Source: Zobellia nedashkovskayae
GTDB taxonomy: Bacteria; Bacteroidota; Bacteroidia; Flavobacteriales; Flavobacteriaceae
Direction of reading: 5' to 3'
Length of the DNA stretch: 64,000 bases
Assembly (NCBI RefSeq): GCF_015330125.1
Contig: NZ_JADDXR010000002.1
Location: 2,616,685 to 2,680,684 of the forward strand
Shown here piece by piece: positions 22,153 through 42,800 of this stretch. The position numbers and the translations under genes were made by a program. The notes under the pieces were generated by a model that saw only the letters and a list, made by a program, of their open reading frames with translations, was not told the origin of the DNA and made no database searches. Within the stretch, counting starts at the first letter, position 1. The number at the start of each line of letters is the position of its first letter.

Positions 22153-24090
22153 ATGATAAAAAAAATACACATTCTATTTGTTTTGGTCTTTTTGATGGGC
22201 GTAAGTGTTTTTGCCCAAGAAAAGTTAATCACCAAGGCCAATGAAAAATATGACGAATATTCTTTCAGCCCTGCTATCGACATTTATAAAAAGGTGTTGG
22301 ATCGCGGGTATGCTTCTGCAGACTTACTCAAGAAATTAGGCAACTCTTATTATTATAATGCAGATTATGAAGATGCATCCAATACGTATAAAAGATTAGT
22401 AGATGAGTATCCGGATGAAATTGGTCCAGAGTATTATTTTAGATACGCACAAACCTTAAAAACCTTAGAAGATTACGAGGGTTCCAAAGCTGTTATGGCC
22501 AAATTCTTGGAGGCTACTTCTGATGATGCTAGAGCAACTGCTTATAAAGATGAGGAAGACTATTTAAATGATATCAAAAGAAATTCAGGAAGATACAATG
22601 TATCACCTTTTCAGTACAACTCTCCATATTCAGAGTTTGCACCTTCTTTTTATAAAGAAGGCCTTATTTTTTCTTCGGATAGGGATACCGGAAATTTTGC
22701 GCGCTACCGTCACACATGGAATTCTAAAGATTTTCTAGACTTATATAAGGTAAATGCAGATAGTGTTTCACAAGGGACAGTTATTAAATTCGGTGATCAC
22801 GTTAATACAAGATTACATGAATCAACTTCTACAGTAAGTAAAGATGGCAGCATACTATATTTTACTCGAAATAACTTTAAGGAAGGTAAGTATGTAAAAG
22901 ACGAAACGGGAGTAATACGTCTTAAGATATTCAAGGCTAAAATGGTGGAAGGCGTATGGTCTGAGATTGAAGAGCTACCTTTTAATAGTAATGATTACTC
23001 AGTAGCACATCCAACATTAAGTTCAGACGGAAAGGCATTGTACTTTGCTTCAGATATGCCAGGCACTTTAGGTGAATCTGATATTTTTAAAGTGACCATA
23101 AATGAAGACGGAACTTATGGAACACCTGAAAATCTAGGTCCAGTGATTAATACGGAGGCTAGAGAAACCTTTCCTTTTGTAACTAGTGAAGATGTTTTAT
23201 ATTTTTCTTCTGATGGACACCCGGGGCTTGGGGGCTTAGATATTTTTGCCTCTAAAATAGCCAATGATAGATTGGACGGGAATGTAATGAACGTTGGAGA
23301 ACCGGTAAACGGACGAATGGATGATTTTACATTCATTTTTAATGAAGACACAAGAAAAGGATATTTTGCCTCTAACCGAGCAGAAGGACGAGGCGCTGAT
23401 GATATTTACGCTGTTTTAGAAACGAAGCCTTTGCTTATTGATTGTGAGCAAGCTATTTCTGGTGTGGTAAGAGACAAGATTTCTAACGAACCACTTATTG
23501 GTGCATCCGTTAAAGTTATAGACGAGAATAATGAGGAAATCATGTCTGCTATTACTGATGCTGAAGGTAAATATGATTTATTAATAGATTGTACACAAGG
23601 CAACTTCGTAAGAGCTATGACAGAGGGTTATGTGCCTTCTGAAGAATACTTAGGGAAATCTGATGGAGAACCTAAAGAAATAGATTTTTATTTAGAGAGA
23701 AGCTCTATAACAGCTGGGTTTGGAGATGATTTAGCCAAATTATTACAGTTAAGTACTATCTACTTCAACTTTAATAAATATGACATTCGTAAAGATTCTG
23801 AAATAGAGGTTGAGAAAGTAATCGCAGCCATGGAAAAATATCCAAGTTTAAGAATCAAGGTAAATTCACATACGGATAGTAGAGGTAAGGATTCCTATAA
23901 CCTTTGGCTTTCACAAAAAAGAGCTGAATCTACTGTAAATTATATGGTGAAAAAGGGAATAGCTAAAGAACGTTTGGATGGAGAAGGTTTTGGAGAGACA
24001 AAACTAATTAACAAATGTTCCAATGGCGTAAAATGTTCTGATAAAGACCATGAGTTGAACAGACGATCAGAATTCATTATTTTAGAATAA
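22153..24090 (+). CDS. PorE-like OmpA-family protein (TPR, beta-propeller, CRD, OmpA)
   Basis: The start at 22153 gives a clean signal peptide (MIKKIHILFVLVFLMGVSVFAQ) and 645 aa; an in-frame ATG at 22111 would add 14 residues overlapping the previous gene. Domains: TPR-like helices (about 25-110), a PD40/WD40-like propeller (about 155-410, with repeats such as FAPSFYKEGLIFSSDRD and HPTLSSDGKALYFASD), a carboxypeptidase-regulatory-like fold (about 432-515, ISGVVRDKISNEPLIGASV) and an OmpA C-terminal peptidoglycan-binding domain (about 535-645, including NSHTDSRGKDSYN). This is the architecture of P. gingivalis PorE, which tethers the T9SS to peptidoglycan. It closes the operon with PorP/SprF and is followed by a terminator. 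Confidence 0.88.
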   Translation: MIKKIHILFVLVFLMGVSVFAQEKLITKANEKYDEYSFSPAIDIYKKVLDRGYASADLLKKLGNSYYYNADYEDASNTYKRLVDEYPDEIGPEYYFRYAQTLKTLEDYEGSKAVMAKFLEATSDDARATAYKDEEDYLNDIKRNSGRYNVSPFQYNSPYSEFAPSFYKEGLIFSSDRDTGNFARYRHTWNSKDFLDLYKVNADSVSQGTVIKFGDHVNTRLHESTSTVSKDGSILYFTRNNFKEGKYVKDETGVIRLKIFKAKMVEGVWSEIEELPFNSNDYSVAHPTLSSDGKALYFASDMPGTLGESDIFKVTINEDGTYGTPENLGPVINTEARETFPFVTSEDVLYFSSDGHPGLGGLDIFASKIANDRLDGNVMNVGEPVNGRMDDFTFIFNEDTRKGYFASNRAEGRGADDIYAVLETKPLLIDCEQAISGVVRDKISNEPLIGASVKVIDENNEEIMSAITDAEGKYDLLIDCTQGNFVRAMTEGYVPSEEYLGKSDGEPKEIDFYLERSSITAGFGDDLAKLLQLSTIYFNFNKYDIRKDSEIEVEKVIAAMEKYPSLRIKVNSHTDSRGKDSYNLWLSQKRAESTVNYMVKKGIAKERLDGEGFGETKLINKCSNGVKCSDKDHELNRRSEFIILE

Positions 24091-24373: not shown

Positions 24374-27300
24374 ATGTTGTATAGCCCGATAAAATTCTTT
24401 TACATTTTAGTAGCAATGCTTCTTTTGAGCACAGCAGGTCTAAAAGCGCAAAATATTGTGGTTAACCCGTCAACTGATCTTCCAACTGAGGTCATTGCGT
24501 GTGGTGATTCGTCTACATTTCAATTTAGGCTCTATGGTACCACTGGATCGGATGAACAAGTAAGTGTTCAATTGCCTGCCCAATCAGAGTTTGTGGCGTT
24601 GGTATCTCCTGTTGCAGGGGTGTCAGTAGACGCCACTAATCCTAAAAACCCAATATTTACTATTGCTGCGCCTCTTATCGGAACGATAAGTTTTATAGAT
24701 ATATCCTATACGGTTCAAACAGGTTGCTCAACAATGGTAGACCCTGAAATTGAACACACGCTCATTAGTAATCCTTCTATTTCTACAACGGTTGATTATC
24801 CATCAGTTTTGTATTCTTCTTTGGAAGTAGATAATGCTATTATACCCTTGTCCGCATCTTTACGTGTAAAAGAAACTCAAGATTTTACATTTACAATTGG
24901 TAATGATCCAGTAAATAATAATGCCTACAGTAATAATGTGGTAGCTTATATTCAACATTCTGATAATATTTCTCTAACTTATAATGGTACAGGAATTTTT
25001 TCTTTAGGTGCTGTAGTTGGTGGTATTGTTACAGATACACTTGAATTAAGTGCTGTTGAAATTTCTACAATTGGTGATAACGATTCGCGCTTCGAACAAA
25101 GTGAAAATATTTCAGTGACTGTAACCGCTGAACTTCTCAATTGCCCATCTGGAGCGGGAGAAACCATTACTTATCAAGCAGCTTATGGTGGTTGTATTAC
25201 AGGTGCCAACGCATGTGAATCCGGTAATACTTCTACGTCCGGTATTGCTTTAGCTTCAGGAGCACCTGATTTGTATACTAGAGTCGTTAAAAGAGCTTGG
25301 CCAGGACTAACTACTACCGATACCGCTGAATTCTTATTACGAAATGATGGCACAGGTGCTGGAGACATTTATAATCTTACGCTTGATTTAGGTTTTAGTA
25401 ATGGAGGTGCGACCTATATTCCCGTTGATTATAACATTTATACTTGGTCAAATTTTAATGTAGATGGGACATCTTTTGCCAACCAAGGAACAGAAGGAAG
25501 TTTTGCCGATTTTCAATTGACAACAGATCCTGATGGGGCTGGAGTAGGTTTGGAAGATTTAGATGGAGATGGCTTTTTTGATGATTTACCAGTCGGAAAC
25601 TCATTGGTCTTAGAAGCAGAACTAGCATATAACTATCTATTAGATTCCAATAATGATACAGCTTGTGATCGCATGAATGCAGGTTATTCAATGGTACGTT
25701 GGGCCTACGAATATAAAGATCAATGTGGTAATTCAACAAGCTTGAATGTGCCTAATAATGGATTGAATACGTGGCGTCCTTGGAGTTTTTACAACACGCA
25801 GTCAATTGCAACAAATATAAATTCATCTAGTGGAAGTGCTAATTTTGGTCCAGGAGATACTTTCGATTTTTTTATAAGTACTTCAAGTAGCCAAACGCCA
25901 ACAACTACAAGTATTCCGGGAATGCACTGGGAAGTACACTATACTTTACCTCCAGGTATCATACCCAATGGGAACGGATTATGGGAATCGGAACCTTTTG
26001 ATTTAATTAGTTTTAATTCAGGAACAGGAGTTGCAATATACTCTTCTATTTCTGCACCTACGTATGGATATTTAATTAGTAGAAATCCAAAAATTCCATT
26101 AATGGTCGATCCAGCTTGTTCAGGTAGTTTTGCTGGAGGTATATCTTACGAATATCATTTAAAAGGTGATTCCACATATGAACCTGTTCACATTTGTGAA
26201 GATGGTCCTACCTTTACAGTCACCTGTCCAAGTAGTGGACCAGCGGTTTGTGTTTCTAATTTTTCTCTAGATCGTACTACTTTAGGGTATACTGATATGA
26301 CTGAAACTACGCCAATTCCGGCAAATACATCAGGTCTTCGCTTAGATCATGTACTTGAGGGTGATATGGTTAGATGGCATGTTGAGATTGATGTAAATGA
26401 AACAAACCTTTCTTCTGCTAAAGCACTGCTGGAATATGATACGAATAACTGGTTTGGTACACAATCGGATGGTGGTATAAAGACAATACAAATTGAATAC
26501 CTTCCTAGTGGTGGAGGCACATCAACAATATCAAATAATCTAGATCAGTATTCTTATGTTCAGAATAATGCAGGAAAAAGCAATCATTCGGTAGATATAT
26601 TGGGTGGAGATTTTTCTACAATAACACCGGGACTTGGTGATAGATATATTATAGATGTAGATTTAAAAGTTTCTGAAAATAGTTCTATCTCCTATACTAG
26701 GTATATGCCTATGACGGGAATTTTGGCTTCTTCTCCTGTAACTTCTGCTGCTAATCCGACTGAACATACTTGTAATTTTCTTACCGAAGAGTTTGGGGTC
26801 TTAGCTTATAAAGATGTACCAACTACACAAGTAGTACAACAAAGTTTAACCATTGACGGTTGTAATGAGTTTGGAATGGGAATACGGTTTCATCATGCAA
26901 CCTATTCTGTATTAGGTGACCTTTTCCCTAATGAATTTCGAAATTTTGCCATACCTAAAGTAGTAGATATTCTAGTTCCAGTTGGAGTTGATTATGTATC
27001 TGGAACCTCCAGTTATAGAGGTTATGGAGAGTTTCTACATGATATAGCAGATCCTGTTATTACCTATAATGCAGAGCCAGGCTTTCATAGGTACAGCTGG
27101 ACGAATGACGGCTCTTGGTCAAAAGAAAAAGCTTCCGTTAGCTACGCAATTAAAGACGTTAATTTTAATGTTGTTGCAAATTGCACTATTGAAGATTGGT
27201 CTTTTTCCGATGAAAGATTGGGTATTATTGTTTTACCAAGTACCGAGTTTGAAATTTTCAGAAATGTAAGTTTACCGGGAAGGTCTATCAATATGGGAAG

Positions 27301-29941
27301 ATCAACCAACGTAAGAAATACACAATATTTACCTCTAAGTTATACGGTTAGTTCACCTACACCTACAATTTCTACAAACACGCAGAACGCAGAATGGGTG
27401 GTTGATATAAATAATACAACCTCCGGTGGGGCTTTTTTGCAGAATACGTGGATTGCTATAGAAATTACAAATAACAATATTGTTCCAACACTTTGGGATA
27501 GCACAACAGAAATACCCCTTATTGGATATGGTACTGGAAAATATTGGGCACAAGTTGGAGACATATCTAGCTCAGGTAAACAATTAGAAATTAGATCTAA
27601 CGATTTTACCGTTTGTGGTACGGATAGTTTTGATATCCGGGTTGGACAAAATTGTAGTCAGTACCCTACCGATCCTGATACGGGTTATCCTTTAGGCAAT
27701 TCTGGTAGTAATTACAATTGTAGCGAGGAAGTGATTCAACTTTCATTAAGTACCCAAGACCCCTCTATTAATGTAACTACAGCTCTTGGTGTACCTCCAG
27801 CTACTTATGATTTCTGCGATGTTGTACCGTATTCAATAGACGTGAACAATGCCGCCAATGGCTTTGCTTACGCCTTGGCTGCAGATATTAAATTGCCTGT
27901 TGGTATGGTACTCGATAATACTTCAGGGGTTTTGACTTATGATGCAGTAGATTATGCAATAGGTTCAGGTCTGATTCTTTTTAATGCGGGTACAAATACA
28001 TATTCAATAGATATTTCTGCAATTGTTGGAAGCCCAATAAGTGGTGCCAACGGATTACCAGGTGTATCTGTTCCGGAGCCTAATGAATTTAAGGTGAATT
28101 TTGAATTGTCATTTACCTGCGATTATGTATCCGGTAGTAAGATAATTACGCAAATAAATGCGGAGTCTGGTTGTCAACAAGCCATTGACCCTAATGATGG
28201 TCAGAGTGAAATTAAAACCAATCCTGTAAATGTTACACAAGTACCTTCTAATATTGATTACGATATTTCGGTCACTTCTGATGATAATGCTATTCAAGCA
28301 TGTAATGAAACTGAAGGTATTTCGGTAGAAATTACCAACCAGGGTATTGAAAGTGATGGCGATATTGAATTTGTTGTGGCTACAATTGACGATGCATTTA
28401 ATTATGTAGCAGGTTCGTATGTAGCAGGTACGAATGGTCCTTCTGCAGGACCAACAGTATCAACCGATCCAGTAGCGGGCACCCGCATATTAAAATGGCA
28501 AATTCCCGATGGAGTAGGGGTCACTTCTCTTATTGCCTTCGATTTTGAAATTGAAGTTGTTTCACCTGAAGATGTGAGTTGTCAAAATTATGATTTAAAC
28601 GTAGCTACTAGAATAGAACAAAGTATTGACTGTTCAGGATCAGGTGGACCAAGTTGTCCGGTAGTTCAAAGTGTTACGGCGCAGACTGATGAAACAATTT
28701 CTGTCGAAAAATCTACCTTACTAATAAGTTCTACGTCTACAGCCGCAATGGTAAGTGGTAATGATCAGAATGTTAGTGCCAATTTTTCAATTGAAAACAC
28801 ATCTAGTACTGTTATGCCAACTGGTACTATTGTTTCAGCGTATTATGATGCGGATACTAATGGGGCCTTCTCTGCTGGAGATATTTTAATAGGCACTAAA
28901 ACGATGACAGTTCAGATTCCAGCAACAAGTTCGGTTAATGGGACTATTGACTTTATTACATCCCCAGACAGGGTTTGTAATATATTGCTTGTAATTGAAT
29001 CATCAAATAACTCATGTGCTTGTGTAACTTCAGAAACAGAAATGATTTCGCCTTCAAGCCTTTCTGGCTTAGCTGGATCTGATGTAACGGTTTGCGAAGT
29101 GTCTGATTCTATTCAAATAGGTCAAACCTCAAATCCTAATTATAGTTATTCGTGGGCAGGTGCAACAGCCGCTGAAACTGCCTTTTTAGACAATATAGGA
29201 GCTGCACAGCCTACTTTTACATATTCGGGGGCTGATATTACAATTATAACCAATTTAATATATACGGTTACCGTAACACTTCCTAATGGTTGTATCATGT
29301 CTGATGACGTTCAGGTAAAAGTCTACCCATCACCAAATCCTACCGTTAACCTTACATCATCCACTTGTAATTTAGATAATGGAGAGATTAACTTTACGTT
29401 TCCTGATAATTTAAATAGATCATCTATTGAGTTTAGTTTGGATAATCAAGCTTCTTATCAATCCTCAGTACCGGATAATAGCGGATCTGTTACGTATTCA
29501 AATTTAGCCTCTGGTTCGTATCGTTTATGGGCGCGATGGGGCAATAACCAATGTCCCATAGATTTAGGGGAACATGTCATTTCTGAAATTCCTGAATCTA
29601 CGATAGACACGCAGCCTATATATCAATCTGTATTTGTTAATGACAACGCCATTTTTACGGTGAATTCGACTAATGCAGATATGTTTCAATGGCAAGAAAG
29701 TACAGATGGTGGAGTTACTTTTAATAATATCTCTAATGGACCTGATTATTCAGGTGCTCAAACGGCTACCTTAAATGTTATTGCAGTAGACTTAACTCAA
29801 AATAATTTTCAATATAGAGTTTTAGTTTCGAGTAAGTTGACTACTTGTGCTGCCCAAAATTCAAATGCAGCTTTGCTTACAATTAAAGTTAAATCTGTGA
29901 TTACCAATAGACGAATTACGGTTAGGGTCAAGAAAAATTAA
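24374..29941 (+). CDS. Giant secreted beta-rich protein with VITNRR C-terminal tail
   Basis: The protein has 1855 aa. The signal peptide ends at about residue 25 (GLKAQ-NIVVNPST). The body is a long series of beta-sandwich-like segments rich in Ser, Thr, Gly and Asn with scattered cysteines, and there is a single TSP3-like loop (DLDGDGFFDDLP). Near the C-terminus are a PKD/SprB-like segment (VCEVSDSIQIGQTSNPNYSYSWAG region) and an Ig-like domain (about 1745-1838, FQWQESTDGG). The last 15 residues are SVITNRRITVRVKKN, shared with the next two genes. No type A or type B T9SS domain is recognisable, and no PorP/SprF gene follows. It is probably exported and surface-exposed; its function is unknown. 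There is a single, probably separate, transcription unit with its own long leader. Confidence 0.75.
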   Translation: MLYSPIKFFYILVAMLLLSTAGLKAQNIVVNPSTDLPTEVIACGDSSTFQFRLYGTTGSDEQVSVQLPAQSEFVALVSPVAGVSVDATNPKNPIFTIAAPLIGTISFIDISYTVQTGCSTMVDPEIEHTLISNPSISTTVDYPSVLYSSLEVDNAIIPLSASLRVKETQDFTFTIGNDPVNNNAYSNNVVAYIQHSDNISLTYNGTGIFSLGAVVGGIVTDTLELSAVEISTIGDNDSRFEQSENISVTVTAELLNCPSGAGETITYQAAYGGCITGANACESGNTSTSGIALASGAPDLYTRVVKRAWPGLTTTDTAEFLLRNDGTGAGDIYNLTLDLGFSNGGATYIPVDYNIYTWSNFNVDGTSFANQGTEGSFADFQLTTDPDGAGVGLEDLDGDGFFDDLPVGNSLVLEAELAYNYLLDSNNDTACDRMNAGYSMVRWAYEYKDQCGNSTSLNVPNNGLNTWRPWSFYNTQSIATNINSSSGSANFGPGDTFDFFISTSSSQTPTTTSIPGMHWEVHYTLPPGIIPNGNGLWESEPFDLISFNSGTGVAIYSSISAPTYGYLISRNPKIPLMVDPACSGSFAGGISYEYHLKGDSTYEPVHICEDGPTFTVTCPSSGPAVCVSNFSLDRTTLGYTDMTETTPIPANTSGLRLDHVLEGDMVRWHVEIDVNETNLSSAKALLEYDTNNWFGTQSDGGIKTIQIEYLPSGGGTSTISNNLDQYSYVQNNAGKSNHSVDILGGDFSTITPGLGDRYIIDVDLKVSENSSISYTRYMPMTGILASSPVTSAANPTEHTCNFLTEEFGVLAYKDVPTTQVVQQSLTIDGCNEFGMGIRFHHATYSVLGDLFPNEFRNFAIPKVVDILVPVGVDYVSGTSSYRGYGEFLHDIADPVITYNAEPGFHRYSWTNDGSWSKEKASVSYAIKDVNFNVVANCTIEDWSFSDERLGIIVLPSTEFEIFRNVSLPGRSINMGRSTNVRNTQYLPLSYTVSSPTPTISTNTQNAEWVVDINNTTSGGAFLQNTWIAIEITNNNIVPTLWDSTTEIPLIGYGTGKYWAQVGDISSSGKQLEIRSNDFTVCGTDSFDIRVGQNCSQYPTDPDTGYPLGNSGSNYNCSEEVIQLSLSTQDPSINVTTALGVPPATYDFCDVVPYSIDVNNAANGFAYALAADIKLPVGMVLDNTSGVLTYDAVDYAIGSGLILFNAGTNTYSIDISAIVGSPISGANGLPGVSVPEPNEFKVNFELSFTCDYVSGSKIITQINAESGCQQAIDPNDGQSEIKTNPVNVTQVPSNIDYDISVTSDDNAIQACNETEGISVEITNQGIESDGDIEFVVATIDDAFNYVAGSYVAGTNGPSAGPTVSTDPVAGTRILKWQIPDGVGVTSLIAFDFEIEVVSPEDVSCQNYDLNVATRIEQSIDCSGSGGPSCPVVQSVTAQTDETISVEKSTLLISSTSTAAMVSGNDQNVSANFSIENTSSTVMPTGTIVSAYYDADTNGAFSAGDILIGTKTMTVQIPATSSVNGTIDFITSPDRVCNILLVIESSNNSCACVTSETEMISPSSLSGLAGSDVTVCEVSDSIQIGQTSNPNYSYSWAGATAAETAFLDNIGAAQPTFTYSGADITIITNLIYTVTVTLPNGCIMSDDVQVKVYPSPNPTVNLTSSTCNLDNGEINFTFPDNLNRSSIEFSLDNQASYQSSVPDNSGSVTYSNLASGSYRLWARWGNNQCPIDLGEHVISEIPESTIDTQPIYQSVFVNDNAIFTVNSTNADMFQWQESTDGGVTFNNISNGPDYSGAQTATLNVIAVDLTQNNFQYRVLVSSKLTTCAAQNSNAALLTIKVKSVITNRRITVRVKKN

Positions 29942-30149
29942 TTTTTTAAAAGTAGGTAGAATCTTATAAAATTCACTACTTATGTAAATTATTGGTAACT
30001 AAGTAGTTGAGTTTGTTTTTTATTCAGACATCACTATTAGTGCTCTTCACAACAATATGTTTCAACTGGTAGATGTATAGCGTAATATTGTAACTGGGGA
30101 AAAGTGTTTTTAAACAAAAAGCACCTCCTATTATAATATAATCATTTAC
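29942..30149 (+). promoter_or_regulatory. Intergenic promoter region with CACAACAAT element
   Basis: TTTG at 30012-30015 is followed after 19 nt by TATTAG (30035-30040), and CACAACAAT lies at 30048-30056, 102 nt before the ATG. This nearly matches the spacing in the two sister genes. The upstream ATCGAT box is not recognisable here. Just after the previous stop, AAGTAG (29950) can pair with CTACTT (29976), but no T-tract follows, so I do not call a terminator. Confidence 0.5.
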
Positions 30150-33100
30150 ATGATTAGATTTTTACTAAAAACTAGCTTCGCTTTTAAAGTTATTTTATCA
30201 ACTGTGATTATATTTTTAATGACAGTGGAATGCTTTGCCCAACCCTCTAATGATGATTATGCAAACGCAATAAATGTATCGTCCCTAATAAATACTTGTT
30301 CTGCTGATGCAGCTTACACTACAGTAGGTGCTACACCTGATTTAAATGCTGGAAGCAATTGGAACAATGGCGGTCCGCTACATAATGTATGGTTTAGTTT
30401 TGTTGCTACTACAAATCAGATAAATATTACTGTTGATATTGGTGGGACTAAAGGAAGCCAGGCTCGTACTCAGTTAGCGCTATGGGAAGCTGATGGTATT
30501 ACTGAACTTACTAGTGATAATTACTACCCCGTTTTTACTGACGTTGACGTTGATGTGGACTATATAGGTTTAACCGTAGGAAATACCTATTATATCTCTG
30601 TAGATGGTTTTAATAATTCTTCTCCAGGTACATTTACGCTTTGTTTAAATGATGCAGTAAATTATGACTTTTACGAAGGGGCAATTGATGTAGATTATCT
30701 AATTAATAACTGTTCAAACGATGCTGAGTTTTCTACTGATGGAGCAACACCAGATAGAAATGCTGGCCTATATTGGGATAATAGTGGCCCAGTACAAAAC
30801 CGCTGGTTTAAGTTTACGGCACCAAATACTGATCAGTTTAATGTAACTGTAGATATTGGTGATGTGGCAAACGGACCAAAAGGAAACCAGTATAGAACAC
30901 AAATCGCCATTTGGGAAGCAGATGGTACTACCGAGGTGAGTAGTACAAGGTATTCAAGTCAATATGCAAATGTTACGCTTGGGGTTCCAGGATTAACTGC
31001 TGGAGATACGTATTATATTTCTATAGATGTTACCAGTGAATTTTCGGCAGGTACTTTTACCTTATGTCTAGATGCAAATGATAAGCAAGGCAATATTGTA
31101 ATTAACGAAGTACTTTTTGACGAAACAAGTTCTGGAGCAGAAGGAAACGATGAATTTATAGAACTTTATAATGCAGGAATTACAGCTGTTGATTTAGCAG
31201 GGTGGAAATTGATGGATGGTAATTTATTTGTAGTTGATGAAATTGATTTTTCTGGGAGTATTACAGGTAATTCAGATCCATTTTTATTTAGTTGCAGTGG
31301 TTCGCAAATATGCTCAGGGTCTACCATATTACAACCGGGTGACTACGCGGTTATATGGGTTGGTTCTCAAAGTACATCAAAAAATGCACCCAATGCAACA
31401 TTTCAGGCTTGGTTAGACAAAACATCAAAGCTGAACAATACTGGTGATGACATATGGTTGTATGATTCTAATACAACCTTGGTTGATTATATAGCTTATG
31501 GAACAAATAGTGGAATAAACCAACCACCACTTCCTGTTATCTGGAATACTAGTGTTCAAGCAACATTAGATAACGCAGGAGATGGACAATCCATAAGTTT
31601 AAGTCCAAACGGAGTTGATGGTGATAGTTCTGATTGCTGGGAGCCTACAACAAGTGCTCAAGCATCGGGTAGGTGTAGTGGTTATTTACCAACATATGAT
31701 ACCGATACCTCAGCAAGAATAGCAAGCCCTGGTGGAGATAATAATGATCCAGATACAGATAAAGATGGTATTTCAGATTCGGTAGATTTGGATGATGATA
31801 ATGATGGTATTTTAGATGAAGACGAGTGTTTACGTACGTCAAATTTAGTCGGCAACGGAGATTTTTCAAATTGGATTTTCTATTCAGATGCTAATAACCC
31901 TGGTTGGACGGGTAGTGGAAACCAATGGAATTTAGACGCAAATAGAGCTTGGTTTCCTCAATGGAACGGAACCGGTACAGCATCATTCTACCAAACAATT
32001 AATGTATCTGCAGGCAGTGAAAATAGTATAACTTTTAATGTAGGTGCGAATACTAGTTACAATAACGAAGTTGCCTTAAATGTTTTAGTTGATGGCGCCA
32101 CAATGTTCTCAGAAACATCAAACCAAATAGTAGCAACTAATGGGGGGCAATCTCAAAATGGGAACGCTACTTCAAATATGGTCTCAAGAACTTTTGTTTT
32201 TACTCCAGTATCAAATACAATTACATTAAGGTTTGATGGTATTTCTACATCAGGAAATCATGATATGATGTATGTTGATAATGTAATTTTAACTACGGGC
32301 TGTTCTGATTCAGATGGAGATGGTATTCTTAATGTTTTCGATTTAGATAGTGATAATGATGGCATTTACGATGTAGTAGAAGCCGGTCATGATGAAGGAA
32401 CACATACCGATGGTAGATTAACAGAAGTTGTTGGCTCAGATGGTGTGCCTGATTCCGTTCAAGATGTAGGACAAGAGGATAGTGGTGTGGTGAATTATAC
32501 AATAAGCGATTCAGATTCCGATAGTATGCCGGATTTTATTGAATTAGATAGTGATGGAGATGGTTGTAATGATGTAATAGAGGCTGGTTATAGCGAGAGT
32601 AGTACAATTTCAGGGGAATTGTCAGGAACGGGATATGACACAGTTACGGGAGTAGTTGTAGATAATTCAGACGGCTATACTACACCTTTGGATGAAAATG
32701 GTAATTCCGTTTATGATTATAGAGAATCTGGAGTTGCCCCAGCCATAACAAATCAGCCGGAAGATGTATATGTAGTACAAGGTGCCGATGCCACTTTCTT
32801 GGTAGAAGCTACTGGTGGCAATCTTAGGTATCAATGGCAACTTAGTATTGATAATGGACTCAGCTATACTGATATTTCAGGTGCAAACAATAGCAGTTAT
32901 ACTATAACCAATGTCCCTGGCTCGTTAGATGGCAATTACTATAGAGTGGTGGTTTCCGATTTGTCTTTTAGCTGTATTTCAAGAACCTCGGAAAGTGCTA
33001 TTCTAATTATTTTACTCGATAATGATAATGATGGTATTGCCAATGCTAATGACTTAGATGATGATAATGATGGTATTCCAGATGAAGATGAATTAAGTTC

Positions 33101-34523
33101 GGCTGCTAATAATTCACAGAGTGATTGTACAGGAGAAACCTTATTAGATTTCAGTGCAACAGCAAGCTTAGTTTCTGGTACTGCACTGCAACAAGGTGCA
33201 GTATATAGAATACCAAACATTACTACAGGCATTGATGCTTTGGTAACCATAGCTCAAACGAACAATGCAACGGTTGCTGCTTTAGATAATAATGACTCAG
33301 AAGCAAATGCATTTAGACCTCAGACTTCTTTCAATCTGGCCAACGTGGGAGATGTTGGTTATATTGAATATACTATCCGTTTTGTAAATAGTGGAGGTAC
33401 TACACCGGCAGTGGTTGAAAAGTTCTTCATGAATTTTAATGATATTGATGGAAACAGTAATTATGCAGAGCAATCGTGGAGCGATAATCCAACGAACTAT
33501 ATTGTTTCCGATCCAACAGAACTCACCATGACCATAGATAACTCTTGGACGGTAGGTACGTCTGGAACAAATGAGTATGATGGTGCTGGCAATAGTAATC
33601 CAGAAGTGAATTTTGGTGTAAGTTATAACTCCAAATCAGAAGTTTCAATTCGTGTTGGTGTTGTCGCTAGATCGGCAGGAGCATCTGCTGGAGGTAGGCA
33701 ACATAATATCGAATTTAGTTGTTTGACTAATTATGAAAACCCTACAGTGTACGGTGTTGACTCAGATTCTGACGGCATTCCTGATTATCTTGATTTAGAT
33801 AGTGATAATGACGGTATTTATGATGCGGTAGAAGCGGGTCACAATAGTCCACATGTTAATGGTGTTGTGAGCGGAAATTATGGTGACAATGGTCTTGCTG
33901 ATGTAGTTGAAACTTCCGCTGAAAGCGGAACTTTGAATTATAGTATAACTAATACTGATAGTGCTGAAAACCCAGATTTTTTAGATACGGATAGCGATAA
34001 TGATGGGTGTAGTGATGCTAACGAAGCCTACGCAGATGCGAATGCGGATGGGGGAGATAATGAGTATTATGATATTGGATCGCCTCCAAGTATAGATGCA
34101 AATGGTCTCGTAACTGCAGCTTCCTATTCGGTTCCACAAGATATTGACGGTAATAGTAGCTATGATTATCAAGAAGCAGGTGCACCTACAATAACAGAAC
34201 AACCTGCAGATATTTCTATATGCCCCGGATGTACTGGTAGTTTCACTATAGTTACAACAAATACGGATACATTTCAATGGCAGTTTTATAATGGCAGTAG
34301 TTGGGTAGATTTGACAGATACGGGTATTCATTCAGGCACAAATACAACTACTTTAACGATTACTAATGTTACTCCTTCCGATAATGGAAACCAGTATAGG
34401 GTTGTTATTTCAAGTTCAACTTTTATATGTGCGAGCGAGACATCCAATACCGCTATTTTAACAGTTGCCGCCACTTCAGTAATTACCAATAGAAGAATAA
34501 CCTATCGAGTAAAAAAGAATTGA
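30150..34523 (+). CDS. Giant secreted multidomain protein (PPC-like, lamin-tail, TSP3, Ig-like) with VITNRR tail
   Basis: The protein has 1457 aa. The signal peptide ends at about residue 29 (ECFAQ-PSNDD). Visible domains in order: two pre-peptidase-C-like beta domains (about 31-170 and 170-310, each starting with a CS(A/N)DA block and YYIS(V/I)D), a lamin-tail domain (about 311-510, INEVLFDETSSGAEGNDEFIELYN), TSP3 loops, a carbohydrate-binding-like sandwich (about 563-717), more TSP3 loops of the DAVEAGH type, an Ig-like domain (about 863-952), another sandwich, TSP3, and a final Ig-like domain (about 1345-1440). It ends SVITNRRITYRVKKN. The PPC-like repeats are closely related to those in the 3379-aa protein at 52875. 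A surface adhesin is likely; the ligand is unknown. No type A/B sorting domain is seen. Confidence 0.75.
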   Translation: MIRFLLKTSFAFKVILSTVIIFLMTVECFAQPSNDDYANAINVSSLINTCSADAAYTTVGATPDLNAGSNWNNGGPLHNVWFSFVATTNQINITVDIGGTKGSQARTQLALWEADGITELTSDNYYPVFTDVDVDVDYIGLTVGNTYYISVDGFNNSSPGTFTLCLNDAVNYDFYEGAIDVDYLINNCSNDAEFSTDGATPDRNAGLYWDNSGPVQNRWFKFTAPNTDQFNVTVDIGDVANGPKGNQYRTQIAIWEADGTTEVSSTRYSSQYANVTLGVPGLTAGDTYYISIDVTSEFSAGTFTLCLDANDKQGNIVINEVLFDETSSGAEGNDEFIELYNAGITAVDLAGWKLMDGNLFVVDEIDFSGSITGNSDPFLFSCSGSQICSGSTILQPGDYAVIWVGSQSTSKNAPNATFQAWLDKTSKLNNTGDDIWLYDSNTTLVDYIAYGTNSGINQPPLPVIWNTSVQATLDNAGDGQSISLSPNGVDGDSSDCWEPTTSAQASGRCSGYLPTYDTDTSARIASPGGDNNDPDTDKDGISDSVDLDDDNDGILDEDECLRTSNLVGNGDFSNWIFYSDANNPGWTGSGNQWNLDANRAWFPQWNGTGTASFYQTINVSAGSENSITFNVGANTSYNNEVALNVLVDGATMFSETSNQIVATNGGQSQNGNATSNMVSRTFVFTPVSNTITLRFDGISTSGNHDMMYVDNVILTTGCSDSDGDGILNVFDLDSDNDGIYDVVEAGHDEGTHTDGRLTEVVGSDGVPDSVQDVGQEDSGVVNYTISDSDSDSMPDFIELDSDGDGCNDVIEAGYSESSTISGELSGTGYDTVTGVVVDNSDGYTTPLDENGNSVYDYRESGVAPAITNQPEDVYVVQGADATFLVEATGGNLRYQWQLSIDNGLSYTDISGANNSSYTITNVPGSLDGNYYRVVVSDLSFSCISRTSESAILIILLDNDNDGIANANDLDDDNDGIPDEDELSSAANNSQSDCTGETLLDFSATASLVSGTALQQGAVYRIPNITTGIDALVTIAQTNNATVAALDNNDSEANAFRPQTSFNLANVGDVGYIEYTIRFVNSGGTTPAVVEKFFMNFNDIDGNSNYAEQSWSDNPTNYIVSDPTELTMTIDNSWTVGTSGTNEYDGAGNSNPEVNFGVSYNSKSEVSIRVGVVARSAGASAGGRQHNIEFSCLTNYENPTVYGVDSDSDGIPDYLDLDSDNDGIYDAVEAGHNSPHVNGVVSGNYGDNGLADVVETSAESGTLNYSITNTDSAENPDFLDTDSDNDGCSDANEAYADANADGGDNEYYDIGSPPSIDANGLVTAASYSVPQDIDGNSSYDYQEAGAPTITEQPADISICPGCTGSFTIVTTNTDTFQWQFYNGSSWVDLTDTGIHSGTNTTTLTITNVTPSDNGNQYRVVISSSTFICASETSNTAILTVAATSVITNRRITYRVKKN

Positions 34524-34864
34524 TTTTTTTAGATAGAAACCTTCTTCAGTTTTTGATACTATTTCCGAGTGTAATACAATCGTTTTAGATTGGCCAAAAC
34601 AATTTAAATTCTAAATAATAGCAGATGTTTTTTGGCTTTGCTGACTACAAATAGAGAGTTGTATTTTATCGATTAGGTGTGTGTTTTAGTAGTAATTCGG
34701 TTTTGTTTTATAAACAGTGACACTGCAAAACATACCAGTGGTACATACATTTTGCATTTACACAACAATTTTTTCAGTAGCCAGCTTGCTGCCAATACAT
34801 TTGTGTGTTATTAAGTCTGTTCATGTAATACTCAGATTTTTAAAGTCATACATAGGAATTATAA
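34524..34864 (+). promoter_or_regulatory. Shared upstream module of the 1486-aa surface protein gene
   Basis: This 341-bp gap has no gene. The upstream box at 34662-34687 (core ATCGATTAGGTGTGTGTTTT) corresponds to that at 24170. TACATTTTG at 34746-34754 corresponds to the -7 position, and CACAACAATTTTTTC starts at 34761, 104 nt before the ATG. The spacings match the 24374 gene (99 bp from box to CACAACAA; 15 bp from TA of the -7 box to CACAACAA). GTTTTG (34700) and CAAAAC (34726) form an inverted repeat where the sister region has GGCGTTTT/AAAACGCC. Confidence 0.6.
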
Positions 34865-37800
34865 ATGCTCTTAAACCCTACTAAGTTTCTTTTTGTATTA
34901 ATTGCGCTGCTGTTCTCATTTCAGCTGGTTGCACAGGAAACCTATTTGGATACTTTTACAAGCACTTTTTACGGAAGTAATGAAGGAACTCAAAATTTTA
35001 GTTCTGATTGGATAGAGCAAAATGATGACGGTAATGCCTGGGGTGGTCGTATACAAATTACTGGTGGTCAGTTACGTTTTAGAAATATGGATAGTAGTTA
35101 TATCTATAGGTTTGTGCCTTTAGCAGGGGCTTCATCCGCTACCTTAACTTTAGATTATGATGCCAATTCTGCAGGAGGTGAGGCAATAGACGTGTATATA
35201 TATAATGCAGATACTAATCAATGGGGTTTTGTTCAAAGAATTAATGGTGGAACAGGTTCGTTAACCTATAATTTAACGGCTGCCGAAATCGCTTCTAATC
35301 CTGCTATCATATTCTATCGTGGTGATACAAATTGGCAAAACAATGATACCATATTTATTGATAATGTTCAATTTTCTGCAACATTTGGTTCAGAAGTACT
35401 TGTTGATGACGTTACTGTAAATGAAAATGCTGGTACTGCAACCTTCACCGTAAGACATGGTGGTAGTGCTGCTAGCGGACCTTACAGTGTTAATTATACA
35501 ACAACTAATATATCTGCAACCGCCGGTCAAGATTATACGGCATCAAGCGGCACCTTAAATTTTGATGGAACCATTTGGGATACGGAAACTATAACTATTT
35601 TTATAACCGATGACACCATATTTGAAGGCGATGAAACCTTTAGTTTTTCTTTCACTTCAACCTCAGATCCCAATGTAGATATTACAGATACGGCCATTGG
35701 TACAATTTTAGCTAATGATGCCTTAATTATTAACGATGGGGGCTCTGCAACTACTTGTGATGACATATTTTTAGATTCTGGTGGTATAAGTAATTATTCC
35801 GATAATGAAGATTTGGTGTATACCATCTGTCCTGATACTGCGGACAATTATACCCAGGTAAATTTTGACCAGTTTGATGTTATATCAGGTGATATTCTTT
35901 ATGTGTATGATGGTAATAATACCGGAGCCACTTTAATAGGGCAATATGATAATGATAATGTACCAACACAAATTTTTGCAACCAATGCTAATGGATGTTT
36001 AACATTTAGGTTTACGTCTAACAACAACACTACTGGTAACGGTTGGCAAGCAACTGTTAGTTGTTCTCCTCCAGGACCAAAGATTGTGGTAGAAGATGTA
36101 TACGTAGATGAAGACTCTGGTAGTGCTATTTTTACCGTGACCCATGTGCGTGACCGTCATGGCTATAGTTGGTTTTTTGGCTTTGTTGAAACTCCGTTTA
36201 CCGTAGAGTATATGGTAAGTGATGGTACTGCAAATAATGGTAGTGATTATATTTCCGTAAACGGTACACTTACATTTACAGGAGAAGTGGGTAATGTTCA
36301 AACCTTTTCAGTACCTATCGTAGATGATGGAGTACCAGAGTTAGTAGAATTTTTTACTGTTGGATTTTCTGATGCAACAGCCCAATACGCCACTGTAGAT
36401 TATAGTGACACTGCCAATGGTTATATAAATTCTCAAATTTTAGCCAATGATCCATTAACACTATTTCAAGAGTTTGATGGGTATTATGATTATTCTACAA
36501 CAGGAGGTTCATTAAGAACAAATGATAACAATACGGATGCTTGTTCTATAACAACATCATCATCAAATACATTGATTGCGCCTATACCAAACACAGGTAC
36601 TATTAAAAAGGCATATTTGTATTGGGCTCATTCAAGTACAGTAGTTGATGGTAGTGTAACTTTTGAAGGACAAACTGTTAATGCAAATTTTCAGTATCAA
36701 ACAACACTTACCAATAGAAATTTTTATGGCTATGTTAGTGATGTCACAGATATTGTAGCGGGTGTAGCAGATCCGTCTACAAATGTTTTTGATTTTTCAG
36801 GTTTATCCGTAGATAACTCAAATACCTATTGTTCATCGGCAACTGTATTAGGAGGTTGGACACTATTTGTTTTTTATGAAGATCCTAATCTTCCTGCGGT
36901 AAACATTAACCTATATCAAGGTTTTGATGGTTTAAGCAATGATGGTAATTCATTTACACTGGATAGTTTTTATGCAATTGCCGGTGCAGGAGCAAAAGCT
37001 TCATTTTTATCATGGGAAGGAGATTCAACTTTAGATGGTAATAGCTCTGGTACTACTAATCCTAACGGGGAACGATTATCGATAACGAATCAGGCAAATC
37101 AAGATTTTACTTTATCCGGAGATGGTGGTCAAACAGGGAATAATGCATACAATTCTACCATGTATGATAATACTACAACACCAGATTATAATGTAAATAC
37201 AACATATGGCGTTGATTTAGATACGTATGATATTTCTACTTATATCTCTCCTGGAGATTCTCAGGTAACTGCAAATGTAGATGTTGGTCAAGATTTCCTG
37301 ATATCTGCGGCAGTGGTATTGAAGGTACCTTCTAATCTTATTGCGGGTACCGTTTTTGAAGATGTTAATTATGGTGGTGGTCAAGGTAGAAATATGACCG
37401 ATGCCAATGGTGTGGGTATATCTAGCGCTATTGTAGAATTATACGAAAGCGATGGGACTTTTGTACGAAGAACAACTTCAAAAGTTAGTGGAGATTACAG
37501 TTTTGGAGGTATGGCAGATGGAGATTACTATGTAAAATTGGTAAACTCTACAGTAAGATCAAATAGGGATAGTGGTATTAACTGCACAACCTGTGTTCCT
37601 GTACAGACTTTTAGAACGTATGGCGAAGTTTCAAATATTATAGAGGTTTTAAATGAAATAGGTGGTGCAGACCCCACGGCTTTTAGTGATTCGGCATTAG
37701 GCGTATTTGATGATTCCCAAAGTTTATCTTTAGTTAGTATAGCCAGTAGTGGTGTTGCAAATATTGATTTTGGATATAATTTTAATACAATCGTAAACAC

Positions 37801-39325
37801 GAATGTATTTGGTCAAGGTTCATTAGAACAATTTATTTTAAATAGTAATACATTAGGAGAAGCAGGTCTGGATATAGAATCTAATTCAATCTTTGACCCG
37901 GCCGCAGGAGAAGATGTCTCAATTTTCATGATACCACCCACAGGTGATTCTTTTGGCAGAACCGCAGATGTTAATTTCACAAATGGTTACTTTGATATTG
38001 AAATTTCTAAAAATGATCCTCTATCGGTAATAACAGGTAGTACTACCATTATAGATGGTAGAACGCAAACAGCATATTCTGGTGATACAAATACAGGTGT
38101 AGTGGGTTCAGGTGGTGATACGGTAGGTATTTCCAATGCTATATTACCAACATATGAAAGACCGGAAATTCAAGTTCATCGAGAAGATGGCGACGTTTTC
38201 ATTAATGAGGGTGATAATGTGATCATAAGAAATTTAGCGATTTTTTCAGATAAGTCTTCAGCCATAGTTGTAGAAGATGGTTCAATAGAAATTACCCAGA
38301 ATTTAATTGGCGTGAATGCATTAGGTAATAATTCGGGAGATATAGATGTTGGTGTAGAAAATAAAGATGGGCAAATTAATGTAAATGGAAATTATCTTGC
38401 AACAATTTTAGAATCAGCAGTATTAATAGATGGTGGTAGTTCAAGTTTAATTCAAAATAACCATTTTGAAAATAATGGTAGTTCACCATGTGATGACGCT
38501 ATTTTACTGGAAGATGGTTCAGGTGTAGTTATTCAACAAAATCTAATAGAAGCATCAGCTTCCACTGCAATTGATGTAGAAGATAAAGTAACCGGTGTTG
38601 TAATAACAGAAAATTCCTTAACAACTTCAGGGCAAGATGGAGGTGATTGTCAAGGAAATCCACAACAAATGGCAATTAAGATAGAAAGTGATGATTCATC
38701 TATTTCTAATAATATTATTTATCAAAATGGTGGCGCAGGTATTGCAATTGTTGACGGTACATCAAATTTAATAAGTCAAAACTCCATTTACGCAAATGGT
38801 ACGGCTGTTGATGCTTTGGGTATTGATTTAAATGATGATGGTGTAACAATCAATGATTCAGGAGATAGTGACAATGGTCCAAATGGCTTGTTGAACTTCC
38901 CCATAATTACTGGGGCGTATGTTTCAGGAACAAACTTGATAGTAGAAGGATGGTCAAGACCAGGAGCAACTATAGAGCTGTTTGCTACAGATATTAATGA
39001 AGGTACGGCAACTATTGGAGATAATACACTAGGATTGACATATGACTACGGAGAGGGGCAACGCTACCTTAATACTATGGTAGAAGGCTCTGCTTCAGAT
39101 TTGGAATCAAACAGTACTACCTATACGGACGAAGACAATAACACAGACAATACTAATAAGTTTAAATTTAGTATTCCATTGCCTTCCGGTATATCGTTAG
39201 GAAAAACGATAACTACAACGGCAACTTTAGCCAACTCAACATCTGAATTTTCCCCATTAAGTACGGTCAAAGGCTATACCGTAATTACTAATAGAAGAAT
39301 TACATATAGAGTAAAACCTAACTAG
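34865..39325 (+). CDS. Giant secreted Calx-beta/CUB-like/beta-helix protein with VITNRR tail
   Basis: The protein has 1486 aa. The signal peptide ends at about residue 22 (QLVAQ-ETYLD). An N-terminal beta sandwich is followed by Calx-beta (about 175-285, VNENAGTATFTV), a CUB-like domain (about 286-400, DILYVYDGNNTGATLIGQY), a second Calx-beta (about 404-530), an unidentified ~290-aa region, and an SdrD B-like/CNA-B-like domain (about 823-905, GTVFEDVNYGG). A right-handed parallel beta-helix spans about 1095-1325, with repeated NxI/ISxNxI rungs and the trailing NDSGDSDNGPNGLLNFP signature. It ends TVITNRRITYRVKPN. It is probably T9SS- or otherwise surface-exported. The beta-helix suggests polysaccharide binding or processing, but I see no catalytic set that I can defend. 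Confidence 0.75.
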   Translation: MLLNPTKFLFVLIALLFSFQLVAQETYLDTFTSTFYGSNEGTQNFSSDWIEQNDDGNAWGGRIQITGGQLRFRNMDSSYIYRFVPLAGASSATLTLDYDANSAGGEAIDVYIYNADTNQWGFVQRINGGTGSLTYNLTAAEIASNPAIIFYRGDTNWQNNDTIFIDNVQFSATFGSEVLVDDVTVNENAGTATFTVRHGGSAASGPYSVNYTTTNISATAGQDYTASSGTLNFDGTIWDTETITIFITDDTIFEGDETFSFSFTSTSDPNVDITDTAIGTILANDALIINDGGSATTCDDIFLDSGGISNYSDNEDLVYTICPDTADNYTQVNFDQFDVISGDILYVYDGNNTGATLIGQYDNDNVPTQIFATNANGCLTFRFTSNNNTTGNGWQATVSCSPPGPKIVVEDVYVDEDSGSAIFTVTHVRDRHGYSWFFGFVETPFTVEYMVSDGTANNGSDYISVNGTLTFTGEVGNVQTFSVPIVDDGVPELVEFFTVGFSDATAQYATVDYSDTANGYINSQILANDPLTLFQEFDGYYDYSTTGGSLRTNDNNTDACSITTSSSNTLIAPIPNTGTIKKAYLYWAHSSTVVDGSVTFEGQTVNANFQYQTTLTNRNFYGYVSDVTDIVAGVADPSTNVFDFSGLSVDNSNTYCSSATVLGGWTLFVFYEDPNLPAVNINLYQGFDGLSNDGNSFTLDSFYAIAGAGAKASFLSWEGDSTLDGNSSGTTNPNGERLSITNQANQDFTLSGDGGQTGNNAYNSTMYDNTTTPDYNVNTTYGVDLDTYDISTYISPGDSQVTANVDVGQDFLISAAVVLKVPSNLIAGTVFEDVNYGGGQGRNMTDANGVGISSAIVELYESDGTFVRRTTSKVSGDYSFGGMADGDYYVKLVNSTVRSNRDSGINCTTCVPVQTFRTYGEVSNIIEVLNEIGGADPTAFSDSALGVFDDSQSLSLVSIASSGVANIDFGYNFNTIVNTNVFGQGSLEQFILNSNTLGEAGLDIESNSIFDPAAGEDVSIFMIPPTGDSFGRTADVNFTNGYFDIEISKNDPLSVITGSTTIIDGRTQTAYSGDTNTGVVGSGGDTVGISNAILPTYERPEIQVHREDGDVFINEGDNVIIRNLAIFSDKSSAIVVEDGSIEITQNLIGVNALGNNSGDIDVGVENKDGQINVNGNYLATILESAVLIDGGSSSLIQNNHFENNGSSPCDDAILLEDGSGVVIQQNLIEASASTAIDVEDKVTGVVITENSLTTSGQDGGDCQGNPQQMAIKIESDDSSISNNIIYQNGGAGIAIVDGTSNLISQNSIYANGTAVDALGIDLNDDGVTINDSGDSDNGPNGLLNFPIITGAYVSGTNLIVEGWSRPGATIELFATDINEGTATIGDNTLGLTYDYGEGQRYLNTMVEGSASDLESNSTTYTDEDNNTDNTNKFKFSIPLPSGISLGKTITTTATLANSTSEFSPLSTVKGYTVITNRRITYRVKPN

Positions 39326-39835: not shown

Positions 39836-42800
39836 TTGAACAATATGATTTTAAGTAAAGTAATGGTCATGAAAAGAATAATTACACTCTTAGTTTTCCT
39901 AATCTCCGGATTAACATTTGCACAGACTACGGTCAGTTTAGAAGACCAATGTAATTGCGAGGTGTTAAGCGGAACAGATGTTACCGCTCCAGGGTTACCT
40001 ACTCCTGCAGGAGCGGATATTGGCGATATTTATGTCAATACCGATACTGGAACGATTTATTTCTGGGATGGCGATTCTTGGGAGTTGACCTCTTCCGATG
40101 ACCAACAACTTCAAAATTTCACTTTTGATAATGTAAGTGGAGAACTTTCTCTTACACTCGAAAATGGAGGTACAGCAACAGTTACCCTTCCGGTAGAGAC
40201 CATAACTACCTTAACGGGAACGGCTGCATTAGGAAATGCTATTGGTGTTTATGAAAATGAAAACGGTGATTTAGTTACGATCAATGAAACAATTACTACT
40301 ATCAGTGATGCTGGTGATGGTAACATTACGCTAACCAATGAATCAGGAGCAACAGTAACCGTAGCCAAATCAGATATCACGGATTTAGGGGGCGGTGTAT
40401 ACCAGTTTACAAACGGTGATGGTACGGATGTGACAATAGATACCAATGGCATGTCAATAGACAATGTCATATTAGGTAATCGTATTGCAACGGTTAATGA
40501 GGCAGATGGTTCAACAACCGATATCAATGAAACAATTACGAATATTACCGGTACTTCAACTAGTGGAAATGAAATAGGTCTTTATGAAAAAGAAGACGGA
40601 ACAACGGTTTCCATTCAAGAGAGCATCGTACGAATAGAGGAAAATAATGATGGTAACATCACTTTAGTAAATGAAGCCGGAAACAGTGTAACCGTAGCTA
40701 AATCAGATATCACGGATTTAGGTGGCGGTGTATACCAGTTTACAAACGGTGATGGTACGGATGTGACAATAGATACCAATGGCATGTCAATAGATAATGT
40801 CATATTAGGTAATCGTATTGCCACGGTTAATGAGGCAGATGGTTCAACCACGGATATCAATGAAACCATAACAAGTATTACCGGTACTTCAACTAGTGGA
40901 AATGAAATAGGTCTTTATGAAAAAGAAGACGGAACAACGGTTTCCATTCAAGAGAGCATCGTACGAATAGAGGATAATAATGACGGTAACATCACTTTAG
41001 TAAATGAGGCCGGAAACAGTGTAACCGTAGCCAAATCAGATATCACGGATTTAGGTGGCGGTATATACCAGTTTACAAACGGTGATGGTACAGATGTGAC
41101 AATAGATACCAATGGCATGTCAATAGATAATGTCATATTAGGTAATCGTATTGCAACGGTTAATGAGGCAGATGGTTCTACCACGGATATCAATGAAACA
41201 ATTACGAATATCACCGGTACTTCAACTAGTGGAAATGAAATAGGTCTTTATGAAAAAGAAGACGGTACAACGGTTTCTATCCAAGAGAGCATCGTACGAA
41301 TAGAAGATAATAATGATGGTAACATCACTTTAGTAAATGAAGCCGGAAACAGTGTAACCGTAGCTAAATCAGATATCACGGATTTAGGTGGCGGTCTTTA
41401 CCGATTCACCAATGGAGATGGAACCGATGTAGATATCAACACGAACGGCATTGCTATTACGGATGTTGTTGCCGGTAATTTAATTGCTACGGTAACACAA
41501 GCCGATGGAACGTTTACGGAAATAGACGAAACCATAACAAATATTACCGGTACTTCAACTAGTGGAAATGAAATAGGTCTTTATGAAAAGGAAGATGGAA
41601 CAACGGTTTCCATTCAAGAGAGTATCGTACGAATAGAGGAAAATAATGATGGTAACATCACTTTAGTAAATGAAGCCGGAAACAGTGTAACCGTAGCCAA
41701 ATCAGATATCACGGATTTAGGTGGAGGTGTATACCAGTTTACAAACGGTGATGGTACGGATGTTACCATTGACACCAATGGTATGTCAATAGATAATGTC
41801 ATATTAGGTAATCGTATTGCAACGGTTAATGAGGCAGATGGTTCTACCACGGATATCAATGAAACCATAACAAATATTACCGGTACTTCAACTAGTGGAA
41901 ATGAAATAGGTCTTTATGAAAAAGAAGACGGAACAACGGTTTCCATTCAAGAGAGCATCGTACGAATAGAGGATAATAATGACGGTAACATCACTTTAGT
42001 AAATGAGGCCGGAAACAGTGTAACCGTAGCCAAATCAGATATCACGGATTTAGGTGGCGGTCTTTACCGATTCACCAATGGAGATGGAACGGATGTTGAC
42101 ATTAACACGAACGGCATTGCTATTACGGATGTTGTTGCCGGTAATCTAATTGCCACGGTAACACAAGCCGATGGAACGTTTACAGAAATAGATGAAACGA
42201 TTACAACATTGTCCACAGCTGATAGTGTAAACTATACCTATACATCAGAGAATGGAACGCCAACGAGTTTTGATGGTACTGATGACCAAGAAGCAACGGA
42301 AGTCAACTTGACGACTCCCTTAGATGTGGATGGTGATAGTGTAGATGAAATAACAGTGGAAGAAGCTATTATTGATTTGGCAGCCAACGCCAGCGATAAT
42401 CAGAATTTAACCGGTGCAACTTTAAGTGAAACAAATCAACTTCAAATAGATATAGAAAGAGGCACCTCCACAAGTGTTGACTTATCATCACTTGTAGAAA
42501 CAGTTATTGCTGGAACAGGTGCTATTTCAGTAGCTGATGACGGAAATGGAAACTATACGGTTACTTCTACCGATCCTGATGAAGATGAAACGAACGAACT
42601 TACTTTAATTGATAGTGGCGCACCAGTAGTAACACCATCAAATGCAGGGGTAACTTATGTTGATGATGTTGCGGGACAATTATATGTTTTTGACGGAACA
42701 ACTTGGCAGCAAGTCGGAGGTAGTGCAGCACCAGATGCTGATCCAGACCCAAATAATGAATTACAGACACTTACTTCTACAGATGGATCGGTAACGCTAA

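Follow-up and report, generated by a model that had tools for sequence, protein, structure and literature searches.

A short C-terminal tail of giant surface proteins in Flavobacteriaceae occurs together with the VFVVK domain of a fibre-like protein and may be its docking tag

What does an almost identical tail of about 14 residues do at the ends of three consecutive giant proteins? The question is raised by a stretch of 64,000 nt from Zobellia nedashkovskayae (contig NZ_JADDXR010000002.1, positions 2,616,685 to 2,680,684), hereafter the window, in which the tails were located by in-frame translation of open reading frames (ORFs) and to which all coordinates without a genome label refer. The three adjacent proteins share the tail consensus VITNRRITxRVKxN, which an earlier note had taken for a sorting, anchoring or processing signal of a separate export or attachment route. 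Among the genomes compared here, confident tails are found solely where a second element occurs, namely the C-terminal VFVVK domain of a fibre-like protein, which in the window is encoded directly after the third tail protein; this link to the adjoining fibre gene is absent from the earlier note. Of the explanations considered, an address for the VFVVK protein suits the tail best, and we give a probability of about one half to the tail being a modular docking tag through which various surface proteins become attached to the VFVVK fibre. The tail proteins and their tails are as follows:

24374..29941, + strand: tail protein 1, 1855 aa, with a signal-peptide-like hydrophobic N-terminus (by eye) and an end homologous to the immunoglobulin (Ig)-like end of protein 2
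29894..29941, + strand: tail 1, SVITNRRITVRVKKN plus stop, in-frame ORF end
30150..34523, + strand: tail protein 2, 1457 aa, with a lamin-tail domain and Ig-like domains
34476..34523, + strand: tail 2, SVITNRRITYRVKKN plus stop, in-frame ORF end, after the last Ig-like domain and with no modelled secondary structure
34865..39325, + strand: tail protein 3, 1486 aa, with Calx-beta, CUB and SdrD_B domains and a right-handed beta-helix
39278..39325, + strand: tail 3, TVITNRRITYRVKPN plus stop, in-frame ORF end

All three ORFs do finish in frame with the tail where it had been noticed, and the tail peptide written out is TVITNRRITYRVKKN. Codon changes between the tails are mostly synonymous, with synonymous to non-synonymous ratios of 9:1, 8:3 and 5:2 in the three pairwise comparisons, which agrees with the third-position differences described before. 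The bodies of the proteins had been called unrelated. This holds for protein 3, where the 120 residues before the tail score 26 and 40 against the other two, inside the range of shuffled sequences, and it does not hold for proteins 1 and 2, which are homologous over the 120 residues before the tail (local score 152 vs 54 for the best of 200 shuffles). In the AlphaFold2 model the Ig domain preceding tail 2 reaches a pLDDT (predicted local distance difference test) of ~96, the tail itself having ~70 and no secondary structure.

No model of Pfam or NCBIfam covers the tail region of the three window proteins. The type B C-terminal domain (CTD) of the type IX secretion system (T9SS), represented by TIGR04131/PF13585, was absent from these proteins at E ≤ 1 (NCBIfam) and E ≤ 0.1 (Pfam) and from 39 C-terminal pieces consisting of an Ig domain plus tail (NCBIfam, E ≤ 0.1), and the type A model TIGR04183 was unmatched by the three proteins and the 39 pieces, the 24 type A matches in the same genome all lying at sites other than its four clear tails. 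The T9SS type C sorting signal, which we take to be NF033708, was not among the NCBIfam matches of the tail ends, although HMMER filters could lose a very short match. A search of PDB sequences with the tail profile returned no match. The description of the tail as a short basic C-terminal element outside the type A and type B models is thus upheld, and in the libraries searched no existing sorting-domain model was found to include it. By eye, the tail ITNRRITYRVK resembles the last strand of type B domains, a likeness that was set aside and not used.

A back-translated pattern for VITNRRIT has four sites in the Z. nedashkovskayae genome, three in the window and one ~2.47 Mb away, while the reversed control pattern has none. 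The fourth clear tail ends an IgGFc-binding/DUF11 protein remote from the window; an example of a tail far from a fibre gene is G000:C2:180634 (G and L numbers are our handles for genomes and loci). A fifth, weak match to the tail profile (G000:C2:3882280-3882321, 22.9 bits) lies in an 82-residue frame. The same pattern matched 22 of 199 genomes of the same family (control 0), one of these matches, in G119, being due to chance, and 6 of 394 genomes of a phylum sample, five within the family (including G119) and one, G376, outside it, with one genome (G531) matched by the reversed control. The matches in G119 and G376 encode VITNSSIT through AGY serine codons and were rejected as chance, as was L094. 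A scan of named genomes found at least 115 stretches with the pattern. The 80 titles listed include Maribacter, Aquimarina, Zobellia, Arenibacter, Cellulophaga, Robiginitalea and Tenacibaculum, which we take to be Flavobacteriaceae, and a few that read just Cytophaga sp. or uncultured. In the profile search the tail was present at E ≤ 0.01 in 31 of the 199 family genomes, so it is not limited to the three window loci; weak matches in G111, G147 and G183 (E 0.03-0.06, frames of 9-49 aa), genomes which are without VFVVK, were judged spurious and excluded.

The tail is also found behind different sequences. Among the matches listed, 119 of 126 reach a stop codon 12-15 residues past the start of the motif, six continue for ~117 residues and one is a chance match. 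When the sequences before 118 C-terminal tails were sorted with simple regular expressions, 52 were Ig-like, 33 were the end of a beta-helix (TSEFS), 13 were DUF11-like, four belonged to a GDPxLNI type and 16 to other contexts. The same tag behind different domains is a modular element. The six longer proteins (L062, L072, L086, L103, L143 and L164) carry an extra domain of ~117 residues after the tail, with the ending (C)GC(V/I)(T/S)F(Y/F)K(L/I) where printed; four of the six loci have Aquimarina titles (those of L143 and L164 were not listed), and the one example scanned had no Pfam or NCBIfam match in this domain. A similar ending was seen in the neighbour of the VFVVK gene in L232.

A likely partner of the tail was found by comparing genomes. 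The giant repeat protein encoded at 39845-49550, directly after tail protein 3, here called the fibre, occupies two frames:

39845..45226, + strand: N-terminal part of the fibre protein (..FAQTTVSLEDQCNCEVL.., long repeats), the frame of which ends inside a 127-bp tandem duplication
45327..49550, + strand: C-terminal part of the fibre protein, with 177 Gly-X-Y triplets at 46923-48515
49245..49547, + strand: VFVVK domain, the last 101 aa of the fibre, conserved and ending in INVVFVVK

With the C-terminal 221-residue piece of the fibre, which contains the domain, as the query, 34 of the 199 family genomes were matched at E < 1e-25, and these contain all 31 genomes with a tail at E ≤ 0.01 (Fisher p = 3e-33, kinship ignored). 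Both cut-offs were chosen post hoc from the tables; when all reported matches are counted, there are 34 genomes with a tail and 39 with VFVVK, overlapping in 31 (p = 2e-25). The matches outside the strict count are the weak ones in G013, G014, G030, G053 and G117 (E 1e-10 to 1e-18), and in G014, G030 and G053 the VFVVK gene has tail-like neighbours of another class. The T9SS component SprA is present in 195 of the 199 genomes, including all 31 tail genomes, and with SprA nearly universal the association of the tail is not simply with the T9SS. The profile search proposed in the earlier note therefore shows a tail spread well beyond the window and no tracking of the T9SS as such, and the separate general export route finds no support in the form given, as the tail follows the VFVVK fibre (31/31) instead. 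The genes for PorP and OmpA, neighbours of the tail genes in the window, also occur together without tail or fibre (L206, L208, L220 and L221, where the gene after OmpA is a presumably isopentenyl-isomerase-like (Nudix) one), and no tail loci were reached through the OmpA paralogues of genus g127 at L212-L215. In G050 and G150 the fibre gene directly follows the OmpA gene with no tail gene between them, the tails being located elsewhere.

The link between tail and fibre is also seen with diverged tails. Of 81 genomes of genus g127, 13 have the VFVVK domain, and the adjoining genes finish in diverged tails, LITNPMIYQKVK and its variants; VISNPMLPANAQ is another such end beside VFVVK genes, and the LITNPMIYQKVK class extends to further genera of the family (L225, L228, L230 and L300). 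Both classes fit roughly the broad pattern [VIL]-I-T-N-[R/P]-x-[I/L]-x-x-[R/K]-x-[K/N]. A profile of the diverged class (A5) matched 10 of the 81 genomes at E ≤ 0.01, every one among the 13, and since its rows were partly taken from VFVVK neighbours the informative parts of this result are the matches in G610 and G635 and the absence elsewhere: at this threshold none of the 68 g127 genomes without VFVVK was matched, and the weak matches in such genomes (G623, G633, G643 and G653) have E values of 0.02-0.09. We scored 34 loci with the diverged class (more than 317 ORFs) by a weight matrix whose training set comprised only NRR tails, which had not been picked by adjacency to a fibre. A VFVVK gene is at most two genes away from 18 of the 20 ORFs with the highest scores; of the other two, one is a tail three genes off and the last a chance match. 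Five column-permuted control matrices placed 3-12 VFVVK neighbours in their top 20.

A tail-like neighbour within three genes was found for 45 of 59 distinct VFVVK ORFs, by a loose regular expression composed after the loci had been inspected. Loci L060-L174 had been fetched via their tails and are thus biased; without them, in loci fetched for the VFVVK domain alone, a tail-like protein lies within three genes of 37 of 44 ORFs. Among the 14 ORFs with no such neighbour, six are cut by the end of the contig or locus (L226, L233, L238, L239, L243 and L298), two have the post-tail extension (L103 and L232), two a degenerate form (L227 and L229), L258 has a tail-like motif ~25-30 residues from the end, L256 has a tail-profile match ~2.6 kb away in a different frame, and in L231 and L236 no adjacent tail was seen.

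The classes of tail and domain also tend to pair, in a way that is confounded by taxonomy: where R follows N in the tail, the domain is of YPPS-type in 10 cases, YMPS-type in three and unclassified in one; where P follows, it is of YMPS-type in 17, unclassified in nine and never of YPPS-type; and where another residue does, it is of YMPS-type (five cases). We tentatively extend the idea of a docking tag to a two-part display system of Flavobacteriales, in which classes of 12-14 residue tags might clip unrelated adhesins onto the knob of a trimeric fibre and tag and knob might co-diverge as matched pairs, NRR with YPPS-type and NPM with YMPS-type domains.

The smallest form of the pair comes from the phylum sample, where the VFVVK domain was found in 14 of 394 genomes, four of them from a second family of the order. 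In these four genomes (L292-L296) the VFVVK protein has just ~190-200 residues and stands beside one tail-like protein, and in L296 three small VFVVK proteins surround a single tail protein, 4233 residues long. Using phmmer with the window proteins as queries, which could miss distant ones, we recognised neither type B nor PorP nor OmpA genes within the stretch read at these loci. With none of these recognised near the pair, the VFVVK protein is the likeliest direct partner of the tail, rather than PorP or OmpA.

As a docking tag, the tail would be a short, exposed, basic C-terminal peptide on large secreted adhesin-like proteins, and it would bind, as its receptor, the VFVVK domain at the C-terminus of a fibre-like surface protein usually encoded beside the tail gene. 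The window fibre, being giant and having collagen-like Gly-X-Y triplets, may form a trimer whose knob is the VFVVK domain, and various tail proteins, some encoded far off, could be displayed on a single fibre. The type B, PorP/SprF and OmpA genes found at many loci suggest that T9SS machinery anchors the assembly: beside the fibre, in many genomes, their products would form an outer-membrane anchor and a link to the T9SS, the components possibly being exported alongside T9SS substrates. The six listed matches with a domain after the motif fit docking better than a signal which needs a free C-terminus.

The N-termini of all three window tail proteins are signal-peptide-like (by eye), which suits the main alternative, in which the tail is a further, minimal C-terminal export signal read by the T9SS or by the PorP/SprF and OmpA cassette and the VFVVK protein is either exported along with the tail proteins or a helper of the same route. 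Such a signal would go unseen by the type A and B models, as happens with all the ends examined, and would agree both with the type B, PorP/SprF and OmpA genes that adjoin the pair in the window and many fetched loci and with the presence of SprA in every tail genome. We nevertheless consider it less likely than docking, because tails are found in so few of the genomes that have SprA (31 vs 195 of 199), PorP-OmpA loci exist without tails, in the second family neither PorP nor OmpA was recognised in the vicinity of the pair, and some proteins continue for ~117 residues after the motif. Only relatives were compared, with statistics that ignore phylogeny, and kinship within a part of the family could account for the joint inheritance of tail and fibre without any functional link. 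This we regard as improbable in view of the adjacency of the two genes, the occurrence, in a further genus and in a second family, of diverged tails next to VFVVK domains that have diverged too, and the absence of both partners from loci that retain PorP and OmpA.

Both tail classes have an invariant asparagine and a short basic core, and these features, together with the C-terminal position and the coupling to a VFVVK partner, could also be read as a processing or covalent attachment signal, acted on by a sortase- or transpeptidase-like enzyme at the NRR/NPM core, with the VFVVK protein as the acceptor or the enzyme partner. In signals of the PEP-CTERM, GlyGly-CTERM and LPXTG kinds a transmembrane segment and a basic end come after a signature motif, but by eye neither the C-terminal 40 residues of the window tail proteins nor the sequence past the motif showed a hydrophobic segment like theirs. 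The VFVVK proteins scanned (three small ones and that of the window) match no enzyme family, and no common enzyme gene was noticed in neighbourhoods that were not systematically annotated. We give this explanation little credence and return to the docking tag and its proposed receptor.

The window fibre scores above the cut-offs of the collagen-like adhesin models NF046116 (Lcl) and NF038329 (SclB), in both cases through the Gly-X-Y repeat. The three small VFVVK proteins have no above-cut-off family in Pfam or NCBIfam, and the PHROG matches of VFVVK proteins are weak and to families with no assigned function. The structural model of the VFVVK domain is of moderate quality, its weak structural matches being to phage tail proteins and discoidin, and a search of PDB sequences with the VFVVK profile gave one match at chance level. 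With such weak matches and a Gly-X-Y stretch to go by, a trimeric fibre with a VFVVK knob is a reasoned guess. Six or more Gly-X-Y triplets are present in only 4 of the 59 VFVVK ORFs, many of which are fragments.

The tail and fibre genes belong to a cluster with further members on both sides:

17392..21168, + strand: type B CTD protein, upstream in the same cluster (PF13585; TIGR04131 32.9 bits, cut-off 35)
21183..22142, + strand: PorP/SprF family membrane protein
22153..24090, + strand: OmpA/PD40/TPR protein (best NCBIfam models CHU_0125 OmpA and PorE, each below cut-off)
49571..51598, + strand: type B CTD protein adjoining the fibre (TIGR04131 48.4 bits, PF13585)
51607..52557, + strand: PorP/SprF family membrane protein (PF11751, TIGR03519)

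The type B CTD with PorP/SprF (TIGR04131, PF13585, PF11751), which here shares a gene cluster with the tail, is likewise an address at the C-terminus of large proteins that Bacteroidota secrete, and its partner is encoded next to it. It differs in being a domain of ~85 positions, whereas the tail has ~14 residues, is modelled as unstructured, matches no model and tracks the fibre protein. The type A CTD (TIGR04183) also stands at the C-terminus of secreted multidomain proteins and has a basic end, but its model spans 72 positions and does not match the tail. In the dockerin-cohesin system a modular tag places varied cargo on one scaffold; dockerins are folded calcium-binding domains and the tail is a short peptide, the likeness being one of working principle. 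The collagen-like adhesins of the Lcl and SclB models share the long Gly-X-Y stretch, the window fibre differing from them by its C-terminal VFVVK domain.

In the sprB operon of Flavobacterium johnsoniae the genes are ordered remF-remG-fjoh_0982-sprC-sprD-sprB-sprF, a succession of PorP-like, OmpA-like, large proteins, type B protein and PorP/SprF similar to that of the window. The tail, a short tag that Pfam and NCBIfam do not model, sets apart a group of giant surface proteins within a common family of bacteria, and the genome comparison points to its likely partner. If the proposed pairing is true, annotators would gain a motif and domain pair, and there would be a hint as to how adhesins that have no known sorting domain get to the surface or remain there, with a possible bearing on gliding adhesins given the similar operon layout in F. 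johnsoniae.

The fibre gene itself is rich in repeats, with 5.2 copies of a 333-bp unit at 40355-42101 and 33 copies of a 45-bp Gly-X-Y unit at 46929-48439. The latter is overlapped by long antisense ORFs at 46795-48519 and 46878-48578, which are probably shadows of the repeat. The perfect 127-bp tandem duplication lies at 45051-45304 and is not a multiple of three; the first frame closes inside it at 45226. An assembly error, a recent mutation and a phase switch are all possible explanations of the duplication. At four loci (L265, L271, L273 and L296) two or three VFVVK genes are clustered with one or two tail-like proteins, which suggests local duplication of the pair. At six others (L255, L261, L267, L268, L274 and L300) one or two further proteins are encoded upstream of the VFVVK gene, with endings like QGWIVKSNG..W..VGRN and SGWDFVSDG..W.IVNKF, and these are possibly additional parts of the fibre.

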